Positions 20,487 to 24,480 of a stretch of 64,000 nucleotides of DNA are shown piece by piece. Under the pieces are notes generated by a model. The model had not been told where the DNA came from. It searched no databases and saw only the letters and a program-made list of their open reading frames with translations. Where the stretch lies: NCBI RefSeq assembly GCF_004799685.1, contig NZ_CP031311.1, positions 1,984,001 to 2,048,000 of the forward strand. Direction: 5' to 3'. Origin of the DNA: Halobellus limi (GTDB taxonomy: Archaea; Halobacteriota; Halobacteria; Halobacteriales; Haloferacaceae). Each line of letters opens with the position of its first letter. Within the stretch, counting starts at the first letter, position 1. The position numbers and the translations under genes were made by a program.

Positions 20487-21308
20487 ATGCACACAGGTGG
20501 CGGTACCGACGGGAGCACCGTCGGTGCCACTGTGGGCGTCGCGACCGCCCTCGACGATCTGAAATCCCGCGGCAGCGCGCTCTTGGTCGTCGGAACCGTG
20601 CCCGAAGACGTCTACAACCGAGTCTCCGCGTGTCTCCTCGGCGGGGACGCCGACGCGGACCGCCGGCGACTCGTCGTCGAACGCGGGTCCGGATCGGAGA
20701 TCCGGTTCGACCGGATCGATCGCTGGACGCCGGAGTGGACGCGGATCCTCAGCGTCGACGTCGCCGCGCGAAGCTCGGCGGCGGACGCGTCGGGAGCGGC
20801 CGGTGACGGCGACCGGTTCGGCCCGGGCGCCTCGCCGGGCTACCCGTCGCCGACCGCCTCGCCGACTCCGACGTCCGACTCGACGTCGTTCGACGCGTAC
20901 GGCGGCGATCCGACCCCGGACGACGCGACGGTCACAGTCGAGGGGTCGATCGTCGACCTCGGCGTCGAGATCGGGACGGCGATCCGCGAGTTCGACGCCG
21001 TCGCGGGCGACCTCGACCCCGGCGAGTTACGCGTCGCGTTCGACTGCGTGGCCGCGTTGCTCTCGGAGTACGACAGACGGACGGTGTTTCGCTTCTTGCA
21101 CGTGCTCGCGAACGACGTCAGATCCGTCGAGGGGATGGGGCACGTCCGGGTTCCCGAACCGATCGATTCGGAGGTCGTGCGCCTCTTCGCCCCGCTCTTC
21201 GACGCGATCGTCGAGCTGCGACTCGACGGCAGAGAGCCACAGCAGCGCTGGCATCTCCGTGACGCCGATCTCACCTCGGAGTGGCTGCCGGTCGACGACG
21301 GGCGGTAG
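20487..21308 (+). CDS. DUF7504-like haloarchaeal protein, RecA-fold-like
   Basis: A 273-aa soluble protein with no enzyme signature. It begins with a RecA/KaiC-like first strand (GSALLVVGTVPEDVYNRV) but has no Walker A Lys-Ser/Thr, so it is a degenerate P-loop fold at best. A Ser/Thr/Pro/Asp-rich linker lies at about residues 95-150. The second half (LDPGELRVAFDCVAALLSEY, then VFRFLHVLANDVR) is the part I associate with DUF7504 proteins. It is 48 nt upstream of the CHAT-like gene on the same strand, and the two probably form one operon. Confidence 0.75.
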   Translation: MHTGGGTDGSTVGATVGVATALDDLKSRGSALLVVGTVPEDVYNRVSACLLGGDADADRRRLVVERGSGSEIRFDRIDRWTPEWTRILSVDVAARSSAADASGAAGDGDRFGPGASPGYPSPTASPTPTSDSTSFDAYGGDPTPDDATVTVEGSIVDLGVEIGTAIREFDAVAGDLDPGELRVAFDCVAALLSEYDRRTVFRFLHVLANDVRSVEGMGHVRVPEPIDSEVVRLFAPLFDAIVELRLDGREPQQRWHLRDADLTSEWLPVDDGR

Positions 21309-21356
21309 CACCGGCCACCAGTACGCTTTTTGCGGCGTAAGTGATGTATTGTCACG

Positions 21357-23543
21357 ATGGAAGGGCTCGGCGGCCGCACGACGCCAGGGGGGGAGCCGAC
21401 GGGGTCGACCGGTTCAGATCACCTCCAGGTCGAGTTCGATAGCTCGACCGGACGGACCGAACTCGAAGTCTCCGATCCGATCGAACGGAGTCAGTTCGTG
21501 CTCTCCTCGCCCGATCCGATGCGGATCAGATCGGCGGATCCGGACGCGTTCCGGTTTCCGGCCGACGGGGCGGTGAGCGTCCGAACCGACCGGTTAGACC
21601 TCGAGACGGTCGTGTCGGTCTGTGTTCGCGACGGCGAGGGGGACATGATCGCACAGGCCGAGCACTTCGCCGACGAGACGTTTCCGCGTGGGACCTACAG
21701 CGTCGAACTGTTCGCCCCGATCAAACTCTACCTCCGGGTCGACTCGTCGCTGCGCGTGGTCTCGGACGCGGCGCGGACGCGGGTGGAGTTCGGCGAGGAG
21801 ACCGACGTGCTCGTCGGGGCCCGATCCCACCACAAGCGCCCGGCGGCGACCATCCGGACGACGGACCGGCCGCGGGACGCGATGCGTGCGGTGTCGCTTC
21901 TGGGGTCGGCGCTGAAGACGACGAGCGTCGAGCGGTCGTATCCGACGCTTCGCGGGCATCCGCCGCTCATCGAGCGCGGGGACCGGTTCGAGGCGCCCGA
22001 CGGACTGGAGCCACCGGAGACGGACGTCACGATCGAACTGCCCGAGACGCGCGGACACGTCTACGCCGCCGCGCCGCTTGCGTACTACCTCGGTGCGACC
22101 GTCGTCCCCGGAGACGCCCCGCGGATCGTGACCGAAGGCGGATTCAGCCACGACCTCGACGGCGGAGGCGGGTTCGAGGCGTCCGTCGAGCGCGTGCTCA
22201 AGCAGACGTTCTTCCTGGACTGTCTCACCCGGACCGAAGGCTACTATCAGGTCGACCTCCACGAGCGGCGGACGCTCGAACCGACCCTCGGGCTGGACTT
22301 CGCGGACCTCTACGACCGCTCGATCGGCGAACAGCTCGAGGCGTATCTGGACGTCCCCTACGAGCTCGTCGAGTCCGAGGTTCCCGACTGGAAACTGACC
22401 GCGCACGTCGCGCCCTCGGCGTCGAACGTCGAGGTGCTGCCGTTCGTCGCGAACGACCTCGCCGTGGTGACGACGCCGCAGTCCGAACCGACAGCCGGGT
22501 CGGCGGTCCAGGCGAGTGCCGTCGAGGAGTTCGTCCGCGGCCCCCCGGAGCCGACGGCGACGCCGCCGAGGACCGGGGAGTTCACGCGGAGCGCGAGCAC
22601 GCGAAGCCGGGACGCCCGAACCGCCGGCATCGAGCGGACGTACGTCCAGCCGCCCGAGACGGACTCGCTGGAACAGGCGTGGCTCGGTCCGGGGATTCCG
22701 ATCGGCGCGAGCAAGGCGTCCCTGCAGGCGTATCGGAACCGGCTGACGCGAGAGCCGATCGAGGGCGACATCGGGATCACCGTCGTCTGCAACGACCCGC
22801 GGATGGCCGAGGAGCGCGACGCCGTCGAGGCCGTGTACGGGTCCCGCGAGGAGCTGCCGTTCGACATCCGGACGCACTACGAACTGACCGTCGAGGAGCT
22901 CCGAGCGGTGCTGGCGGACGAGACGGAGTTCCTCCACTACATCGGCCACATCGACGAGGACGGCTTCCAGTGTCCGGACGGCGCACTCGACGTGACGAGC
23001 ATCGAGACGGTCGGCGTGGACTCGTTTCTCCTCAACGCGTGTCAGTCCTACGAGCAGGGGATGGAACTCATCGAACGGGGGGCGATCGCCGGCATCGTCA
23101 CGCTCAGCGACGTCGTCAACAGCGGCGCGGTCGACATCGGCCGGAGCCTGGCTCGGCTGTTGAACTACGGGTTCCCGATCCGGATCTCGCTGGATCTGGC
23201 CTGTAAAGACAGCTACATCGGGAGCGACTACATCGTCGTCGGCGACGGGAGCTTCTCCGTGGCACAGGTCCAGGCGATGCTCCCGAATACGGGGATCATA
23301 ACGAGGGACGGCGAAGAGTATCTCCTCGAATACGTCACCTACCCCGCCGCGGAGTTCGGCCTGGGGAGCCTCGTCAGTCCGTACGTGTCCGGCAACGAGA
23401 GCCACTACCTGTCGTCGGGGACGATCGATACGTTCCGGTTGTCGCACGAGGAGCTCGCGGACTTCCTGGCGCTAGAGAATATACCCGTACTGATCAATGG
23501 GCGGCTCCGGTGGAGCGATACCGTCGATTTCGAGGATCTGTAA
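21357..23543 (+). CDS. Large protein with a C-terminal CHAT (caspase-like) protease-like domain
   Basis: A 728-aa soluble protein. Residues 1-430 are beta-rich and not recognisable. A Pro/Thr/Arg-rich linker runs from about residue 385 to 430. Residues about 475-640 look like a CHAT caspase-like protease: DIGITVVCNDPRM as strand 1, then FLHYIGHIDEDGF with His531 in the place of the catalytic His, and FLLNACQSYEQG with Cys562 in the place of the catalytic Cys, followed by GAIAGIVTLSDVV and the ARLLNYGFPI helix. Spacing and order match the family. No membrane span. It lies downstream of a DUF7504-like gene and converges on a 47-aa membrane peptide gene 6 nt away. Protease activity is inferred, not shown. 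Confidence 0.8.
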   Translation: MEGLGGRTTPGGEPTGSTGSDHLQVEFDSSTGRTELEVSDPIERSQFVLSSPDPMRIRSADPDAFRFPADGAVSVRTDRLDLETVVSVCVRDGEGDMIAQAEHFADETFPRGTYSVELFAPIKLYLRVDSSLRVVSDAARTRVEFGEETDVLVGARSHHKRPAATIRTTDRPRDAMRAVSLLGSALKTTSVERSYPTLRGHPPLIERGDRFEAPDGLEPPETDVTIELPETRGHVYAAAPLAYYLGATVVPGDAPRIVTEGGFSHDLDGGGGFEASVERVLKQTFFLDCLTRTEGYYQVDLHERRTLEPTLGLDFADLYDRSIGEQLEAYLDVPYELVESEVPDWKLTAHVAPSASNVEVLPFVANDLAVVTTPQSEPTAGSAVQASAVEEFVRGPPEPTATPPRTGEFTRSASTRSRDARTAGIERTYVQPPETDSLEQAWLGPGIPIGASKASLQAYRNRLTREPIEGDIGITVVCNDPRMAEERDAVEAVYGSREELPFDIRTHYELTVEELRAVLADETEFLHYIGHIDEDGFQCPDGALDVTSIETVGVDSFLLNACQSYEQGMELIERGAIAGIVTLSDVVNSGAVDIGRSLARLLNYGFPIRISLDLACKDSYIGSDYIVVGDGSFSVAQVQAMLPNTGIITRDGEEYLLEYVTYPAAEFGLGSLVSPYVSGNESHYLSSGTIDTFRLSHEELADFLALENIPVLINGRLRWSDTVDFEDL

Positions 23544-23549
23544 TCCGAT

Positions 23550-23693
23550 TCAGGGACCCGAGATCGCGGTGTGGTTCCCGGCGACCGCGGATCCGGCCTG
23601 CGAGAGCAGGAGCAGCGCAGTGAAGAGGACGCCCATCGCGCGGGGGTGGTCAGCGAGGTACTGTGCGACCGCGTTGGTGTCATTTTCGGACAT
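23550..23693 (-). CDS. Small single-span membrane protein (DUF7503-like)
   Basis: A 47-aa peptide with a polar start (MSENDTNAVAQYLADHP), one hydrophobic helix (GVLFTALLLLSQAGSAVAG) and a short polar tail ending NHTAISGP. I recall almost identical peptides in haloarchaea as family DUF7503, so it is real despite its size. The start at 23693 is backed by a TATA-like TTTAAAA (23716-23722) centred 26 nt upstream. It ends 6 nt from the stop of the convergent CHAT-like gene. The helix could also be a signal peptide (cleavage after AVA-G). Confidence 0.8.
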   Translation of the reverse strand: MSENDTNAVAQYLADHPRAMGVLFTALLLLSQAGSAVAGNHTAISGP

Positions 23694-23715
23694 GACGATT
23701 GGTACCTCGACGCGC

Positions 23716-23722
23716 TTTAAAA
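23716..23722 (-). promoter_or_regulatory. TATA box of the 47-aa membrane peptide gene
   Basis: TTTAAAA centred about 26 nt upstream of the ATG at 23693, at the edge of a strongly AT-rich stretch (about 23715-23790) that also precedes nothing else on the plus strand. Confidence 0.6.
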
Positions 23723-23880
23723 TAAAATTTTCTGACACTTTCTGATATAATATTATATTAATTTAGTTCCTATAGAACGATACAAAAAGATGTACGGCGC
23801 CGAGAGTGTCTCTCGAAGCCGGGTAGTTACTCGAAGCGACTCGATAGCCGTACTACGGGAGAACCGGAGCGGATCTGTCG

Positions 23881-24480
23881 TTACTCGGAACTGTCAGCGT
23901 CGACGTCGAGGTCGCCGCCGAGATCACGGTACATCGCGGTGAAGTCGTGTTCGTCGTCGAACGCGGTGAGCGTCTCGTCGAGCTCGGCCCGGAGGTTCTG
24001 AACGCGCTCTGTGAGCTCCTGGTACTCCGCGTGCTCTTCGAGGGTGGCCGCGTCCTTCTCCGATTCCAGGAGGGCCTTCTTCGAGGCGAGCGCGAACAGC
24101 TCCTGGATGCCGTCGTCGTAGCTGTTCCGGCGGAGCAGGTTCTCGACGGTGTCCTTCAGCGAATCCCGCGAGACCGGTTTGACGAGGTAGTCGTCGAAGC
24201 CCATCGCGACGATGTCGAAGTCGGGTTCGACGGCGGTGACCATCGCGACGCGACAGCCGACGTCGCGCTCGCGGATCGCCTCCAGCGCCTCGTCGCCCGA
24301 GAGGTCCGGCATCCGTCGATCGAGCAGGACTACGTCGACTTCCTCGTCGAGTTCTTCGAGTGCCTCGCGACCGCCGTAGGCGACGCGAACGCGATACTCG
24401 TCTCTCAGCCACGTTGCGTACAGGTCGGCGAGGTCCGGCTCGTCTTCGACGACGAGCACCATCGGCAGATCAGCACTCAT
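23881..24480 (-). CDS. HalX-type response regulator
   Basis: A 199-aa two-component output protein. The receiver domain has the acidic pocket VEDEPDLADL, phospho-acceptor Asp54 (VVLLDRRMPD) and conserved Lys101 (DDYLVKPV). The C-terminal 90 residues form the helical, charged HalX domain (about 110-190) found only in haloarchaeal regulators; its target is unknown and no DNA-binding domain is visible. No kinase gene is adjacent. It lies 187 nt from the DUF7503-like gene on the same strand, so it could belong to the same locus. Confidence 0.92.
   Translation of the reverse strand: MSADLPMVLVVEDEPDLADLYATWLRDEYRVRVAYGGREALEELDEEVDVVLLDRRMPDLSGDEALEAIRERDVGCRVAMVTAVEPDFDIVAMGFDDYLVKPVSRDSLKDTVENLLRRNSYDDGIQELFALASKKALLESEKDAATLEEHAEYQELTERVQNLRAELDETLTAFDDEHDFTAMYRDLGGDLDVDADSSE

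Follow-up and report, generated by a model that had tools for sequence, protein, structure and literature searches.

What does a gene of 47 codons do when it is placed tail-to-tail against the gene of a large protein that family searches do not recognize? The question is raised by a locus within a 64,000-nucleotide (nt) stretch of the Halobellus limi genome (contig NZ_CP031311.1, positions 1,984,001 to 2,048,000; referred to below as the window), in which a predicted cysteine protease of 728 amino acids (aa) is encoded convergently with a 47-aa protein of the DUF7503 family. A preliminary description of this DNA had listed four open reading frames (ORFs), encoding a DUF7504-like protein, a CHAT-like protease, a tiny membrane peptide and a HalX regulator, and all four are present where it had placed them. 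The DUF7503-protease locus is a two-gene module with the protease and the tiny gene, encoded tail-to-tail, as its core, because the DUF7504 and HalX genes are more loosely associated and no other neighbour is common across families. The reading favoured here, at a probability of about one half, is that an intracellular caspase-fold (CHAT) protease is gated by a short peptide ligand of its own, the Gly-Pro-ending tail of the tiny protein.

The linkage between the two genes was counted in a fixed sample of 50 genomes, with DUF7503 genes found using the Pfam profile PF24335. Homologues of the protease fall into three paralogue groups, designated types I, II and III. All 47 DUF7503 genes in the sample were convergent with a protease gene and no more than 500 nt from its 3' end, and a DUF7503 gene was present at 46 of the 53 type I protease genes compared with 1 of the 44 lower-scoring matches. 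The gap between the sense ends of the protease gene and the tiny gene is typically 2–15 nt, and within the window 6 nt separate the two stops on their opposite strands. A co-absence test designed to falsify the pairing was performed on 18 genomes in which the type I protease gene is missing or broken, or has a distant paralogue in its place; these were picked from earlier searches, most were re-checked, and a few are shared with the 50-genome sample. DUF7503 was absent from all 18. The locus of Halobellus salinus (L058:5186-7553) is a natural experiment on this co-loss, with the protease gene broken, the DUF7503 gene gone, and the DUF7504 and HalX genes intact. No conserved neighbour beyond the module was common to the families compared, and gene order is otherwise not kept. 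Linkage and co-absence together argue that the protease and DUF7503 probably function together, and the case for the 47-aa gene as partner of the protease is strong.

The 728-aa protein itself gave no significant match in Pfam, NCBIfam or PADLOC scans, its sequence profile matched nothing in the PDB, and a search of the source genome for the CHAT family returned no match. The assignment of its fold therefore rests on structure and relatives. The CHAT profile PF12770 did not detect the window protein but was matched by 13 of the 49 homologues scanned (best E value 4e-5), and one homologue (G064:C7) lies above the Pfam CHAT cut-off by itself (28.1 versus 24 bits). An AlphaFold2 model of the window protein was obtained with a predicted local distance difference test score (pLDDT) of 85.6 and a predicted template modelling score of 0.86, and its best Foldseek match among solved structures was SAVED-CHAT (1e-7), with further matches to gingipain (1e-6), separase (3e-6) and Craspase (5e-4). 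The candidate catalytic residues, His531 and Cys562, are invariant in all 49 rows of the homologue alignment, as are His527, Gly530, Asn560 and Ser564. Within a profile of residues 430–662, the segment FLLNACQS falls on FVLNACQS of bona fide CHAT proteins, and the order of motifs, a His in xGH followed by a Cys in xAC, is that of the same proteins. Given the invariant positions, the CHAT matches among homologues, the Foldseek matches and the profile alignment, the predicted assignment to the CHAT (clan CD) caspase-type proteases is sound, in line with the fold and the His/Cys dyad that the preliminary description had put forward. The gingipain matches of the model extend over approximately 460 columns, and for this reason the middle region (residues 165–390) is possibly a pseudo-caspase half like that of gingipain or separase.

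Homologues of the protease occur in 268 of the 293 genomes of the order and in 78 of its 87 genera, often with several per genome. This breadth, together with the invariance of both candidate catalytic residues, shows that the protease gene is not a chance ORF. The dyad is also kept in all 15 further type I and II paralogues examined beyond the 49-row alignment. Both its His and its Cys are gone from all five type III paralogues (L068–L072), which retain the N-terminal half, indicating that pseudoproteases have arisen. At two further loci protease paralogues are arrayed head-to-tail, two at L099 and three at L100, and no tiny gene is recognizable there. Distant homologues scoring approximately 210–240 bits (L091–L094) are found in one family outside the Halobacteria but of the same phylum, and no GP-tailed neighbour was present at these.

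Additional copies of the protease gene are carried on large plasmids, and in public plasmid records the homologues mostly bear the label hypothetical and only rarely that of a CHAT or caspase family protein. CHAT proteases act in gasdermin defence and in type III CRISPR (clustered regularly interspaced short palindromic repeats) defence, the latter exemplified by Craspase (PMC9729208). These precedents, along with the plasmid-borne copies, would fit a module for defence against viruses or for abortive infection in which the CHAT protein is the effector, but such a role is unlikely for a family with a homologue in nearly every genome of the order. The PADLOC scan gave no match for DUF7503 or DUF7504 any more than for the protease, no relative of the protease was found in phage records or viral contigs, and the window copy is flanked by chromosomal household genes, encoding an aminotransferase and IMP dehydrogenase.

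The anatomy of the tiny protein was established by comparing 103 relatives. The general layout is acidic N-terminus, [HN]P[RK], hydrophobic core, [AVS]xA and tail. Conservation of the core extends to individual residues (PR.xGxLF..LLL.QAG, with LF, LLL and QAG), the [AVS]xA at the end of the hydrophobic segment is present in 100 of the 103 relatives, and a Gly at position -5 and the R/K that precedes the core likewise resemble a Sec signal peptide. From xPR to the C-terminus there are 30–33 residues, the tail being of fixed length, and only 18 of 1209 tail residues are charged. The tail ends in Gly-Pro in 94 relatives, in TID in five and in single deviations in the other four; the TID-ending variants (L118, L126, L128, L152 and L155) belong to a few genera and are changed only in the tail. 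The six residues preceding Gly-Pro vary more than any others in the protein (2.7–3.1 bits) and are nearly uncharged. All four third bases occur in the Gly and Pro codons, the stops are variously TAA, TGA and TAG, and the proportion of nonsynonymous differences (pN) at these codons is 0.00–0.03 against a synonymous proportion (pS) of 0.54–0.69, from which it follows that the Gly-Pro signature is kept at the protein level.

Upstream of the DUF7503 gene, the profile over the same relatives is AT-rich and TATA-like, indicating that the tiny gene possesses its own promoter. A site of the TATCAGA..CRRAAA type occurs once in the window, upstream of the tiny gene. The promoter-like element at that place (within 23694–23753) reads TATCAGA..TCAGAAAATTTTATTTTAAA, and elements like it are also seen upstream in Haloferax and Haloplanus. 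The single occurrence of the combined pattern and the recurrence of similar elements in these genera make it possible that the tiny genes are under a shared regulator. The very tight convergent stops could themselves serve transcription termination, in which case the tiny gene would be no functional partner and the pairing would reflect nothing more than common 3' ends or a conserved order of genes. This is highly improbable, as selection acts on the protein, with Gly-Pro fixed while third bases are free and stops vary, the tiny gene is separately promoted, gene order is otherwise not kept across families, and the two genes are lost together.

The hydrophobic core, despite its conservation, is not carried by every partner of the protease. 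In Haloplanus the convergent gene, preceded by the same promoter type, has lost the hydrophobic span and encodes a 13-residue unit that is repeated in tandem and has the tail at its end. These array genes are located directly past the protease 3' end on the opposite strand (L010 3582, L013 3582 and L038 3744) and contain, respectively, 13 copies of GNSGGISGP, 7 of GNGSGISGP and 2 of GNGGAVSGP, to be compared with GNHTAISGP in the window. The tandem copies are encoded with varied synonymous codons and their number differs between species. A Halococcus paralogue has another carrier, a soluble peptide with CTYSGP at its C-terminus. In the protease tree both cases fall within the DUF7503 clade; the hydrophobic span has therefore been lost at least twice with the tail retained. 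Some type II proteases are accompanied by unrelated convergent ORFs that also end in GP; in four genomes (L059, L062, L096 and L110) this end is RVSTYGGP in three cases and RISTYRGP in one. Over the paralogous protease loci, a GP end was found in 13 of 131 small convergent ORFs against a background of 1.2% (P = 7e-9), and the excess persists without the ORFs that match the DUF7503 profile (P = 2e-5). As judged from these comparisons, the constant element of the tiny proteins is a fixed-length, uncharged Gly-Pro tail and not the hydrophobic span.

The exchange of carriers bears directly on the membrane-pore target that had been proposed for the protease in the preliminary description, whereby the CHAT protease would cut the tiny membrane peptide and free a pore-forming effector as in bacterial gasdermin systems. 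A hydrophobic span is usual, the linkage is perfect, and the basic residue conserved just ahead of the span (PR or PK) is a possible cleavage site. The proposal is nevertheless quite unlikely to be correct, since the span is dispensable in the two lineages described above, where the tail is kept and even repeated. In addition, near-universal presence in the order would be unusual for a suicide effector, and a single span in a protein of 47 aa is unlike a gasdermin.

Because an active-looking protease and a short tail are the sole constants of the module, a tail that serves as ligand of the protease is the simplest account. We infer that the tiny protein works through its short, neutral C-terminal tail of fixed length ending in Gly-Pro, and that this tail would dock on the protease and gate it, whether as an inhibitor, a pseudosubstrate or a substrate that is cleaved. 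In most lineages a single tail would be displayed on the hydrophobic helix of DUF7503, and in Haloplanus the display would be a soluble chain carrying 2–13 tail copies. Where present, DUF7504 would probably supply sensory or scaffold input, and the outcome would be a stress or housekeeping response, not phage defence. Several observations weigh against gating by the tail. Approximately 9% of DUF7503 tails do not end in GP, the TID variants among them; GP is internal in the tandem arrays, so that a free C-terminus is not strictly needed; and many type II protease loci are without a recognizable peptide ORF. Furthermore, judging from the [AVS]xA prefix and a probable N-in orientation, the tail may be extracellular in most lineages and separated from a cytosolic protease.

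An exported tail is what would be expected if DUF7503 were a pheromone precursor, consisting of a Sec-type signal peptide and a peptide of 8–9 residues that is released, re-imported and controls the CHAT protein, with the Haloplanus genes as multi-copy precursors. The R/K, hydrophobic core, Gly at -5, [AVS]xA and fixed-length variable tail constitute a textbook layout for such a precursor, tandem peptide copies exist in Haloplanus, and a tiny antiparallel gene adjoins a large intracellular partner. Tail identity is, moreover, at background level even where the first 19 conserved residues (from xPR) are 80% identical. Peptide signalling of this kind is a tentative possibility only, for the core is conserved beyond the needs of a plain signal peptide and no export signal is evident in the carriers of Haloplanus and Halococcus. 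In a matched comparison, the tails of paralogues within one genome were no more divergent than expected (P = 0.60), and positive selection on the tail was not shown, with pN/pS below one (0.3–0.86, with saturation). The conservation of the core and the carriers lacking an export signal are the grounds on which the gating ligand is ranked first and the peptide signal second.

The remaining genes of the locus, whose coordinates are collected in Table 1, are attached to the core less firmly. Co-occurrence of DUF7503, CHAT-like and DUF7504-like genes across haloarchaea had been suggested as a check, and it was found for DUF7503 with the protease but is looser for DUF7504, which lies upstream of 35 of 59 type I protease genes and is an optional partner. 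The AlphaFold2 model of DUF7504 (pLDDT 85) matched KaiC CI in Foldseek (3e-7), and in the alignment no Walker A motif was found, a GTVPEDVY-type sequence being present instead, as befits the degenerate RecA-like protein previously described. DUF7504 is multi-copy in genomes, with six copies in the source genome; given this and its presence beside the protease at only some loci, any sensory or scaffold function is speculative. HalX was considered as a core part and rejected, being near only 18 of the 59 type I protease loci; it is a lineage-specific neighbour and probably not a core part, contrary to its earlier inclusion in the system. As a whole, the preliminary description holds for the fold, the dyad, the nature of DUF7504 and the tiny-gene partnership, and fails for the membrane-pore target.

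Table 1. Features of the Halobellus limi protease-DUF7503 locus, in window positions
Feature	Position	Strand	Basis
DUF7504 protein gene, 273 aa	20487-21308	+	ORF; PF24336, 167 bits versus 27-bit cut-off (Pfam)
Predicted CHAT-like (clan CD) cysteine protease gene, 728 aa; core gene of module	21357-23543	+	ORF, alignment, model
N-terminal beta-rich region, protease residues 26-160	21432-21836	+	AlphaFold2 secondary structure; without family match
Middle alpha/beta region, protease residues 165-390	21849-22526	+	AlphaFold2
Predicted catalytic caspase-type region, approximately residues 428-719	22638-23513	+	Secondary structure order of model; profile alignment
Codon of candidate catalytic His531, in LHYIGHID	22947-22949	+	Invariant in alignment
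Codon of candidate catalytic Cys562, in LLNACQS	23040-23042	+	Invariant in alignment
DUF7503 tiny protein gene, 47 aa; convergent partner	23550-23693	-	PF24335, 76.7 bits versus 27-bit cut-off
C-terminal tail GNHTAISGP of DUF7503; variable, uncharged, fixed length	23553-23579	-	103 relatives
Hydrophobic segment of DUF7503, residues 19-38, with signal-peptidase-like [AVS]xA at its end	23580-23639	-	103 relatives
AT-rich promoter region of DUF7503 gene, TATA-like element approximately 25-40 nt before ATG	23694-23753	-	Upstream AT profile, 103 relatives
HalX response regulator gene	23881-24480	-	PF00072 and PF08663, well above Pfam cut-off

The module resembles several known systems in part. With the CHAT proteases of type III CRISPR systems (SAVED-CHAT and TPR-CHAT, or Craspase), the haloarchaeal protease would share the caspase-type catalytic fold and the order of the His and Cys motifs, but it has no SAVED or TPR match, no CRISPR genes adjoin it or are conserved as neighbours, its partner is a tiny GP-tailed peptide and its distribution is near-core. 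Bacterial gasdermin-CHAT pairs likewise place a CHAT-like protease beside a small, usually hydrophobic partner. The haloarchaeal partner, however, is too small at 47 aa for a gasdermin fold, the genes are convergent with no other conserved neighbour, and it is the tail that is constant and the hydrophobic span that is dispensable. Separase is restrained by securin, a dedicated partner that acts as a pseudosubstrate, and this logic is the one proposed here for the haloarchaeal pair; separase and gingipain, both of clan CD, are structural neighbours of the protease model, although no sequence relation to them is detectable and the haloarchaeal partner is a short tail ending in Gly-Pro. Phr and SHP peptides control Rap and Rgg, respectively, and in these systems too a tiny gene with a signal-peptide-like precursor and a short C-terminal peptide is found beside a large intracellular protein. 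The haloarchaeal receptor would differ in being a protease, carriers without an export signal occur, and the organisms belong to another domain of life.

A literature search returned nothing on DUF7503, on DUF7504, or on a CHAT domain in haloarchaea or Haloferax. Haloferax volcanii has been reported to possess high caspase-like activity, termed housekeeping and stress linked, in a study that did not identify the protein and called for its identification (PMC3615174). This activity is haloarchaeal and caspase-like, as the module is predicted to be, but is tied to no gene, and it may come from the CHAT-like protease family. Haloferax volcanii, used as a control in the profile searches, was positive for both DUF7503 and DUF7504 and is genetically tractable, which makes the link to caspase-like activity testable. 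If GP-tailed precursors released short peptides that control a caspase-like protease, archaeal peptide signalling would constitute a density- or kin-dependent switch for proteolysis or death and would explain this orphan activity, although so far-reaching a scheme is doubtful. Most haloarchaea contain a predicted caspase-fold protease with an obligate tiny partner, the protease being mostly labelled hypothetical in plasmid records. The Gly-Pro tail, which persists where its carrier has been exchanged or multiplied, would represent a compact recognition code for the protease or, alternatively, an archaeal peptide signal.

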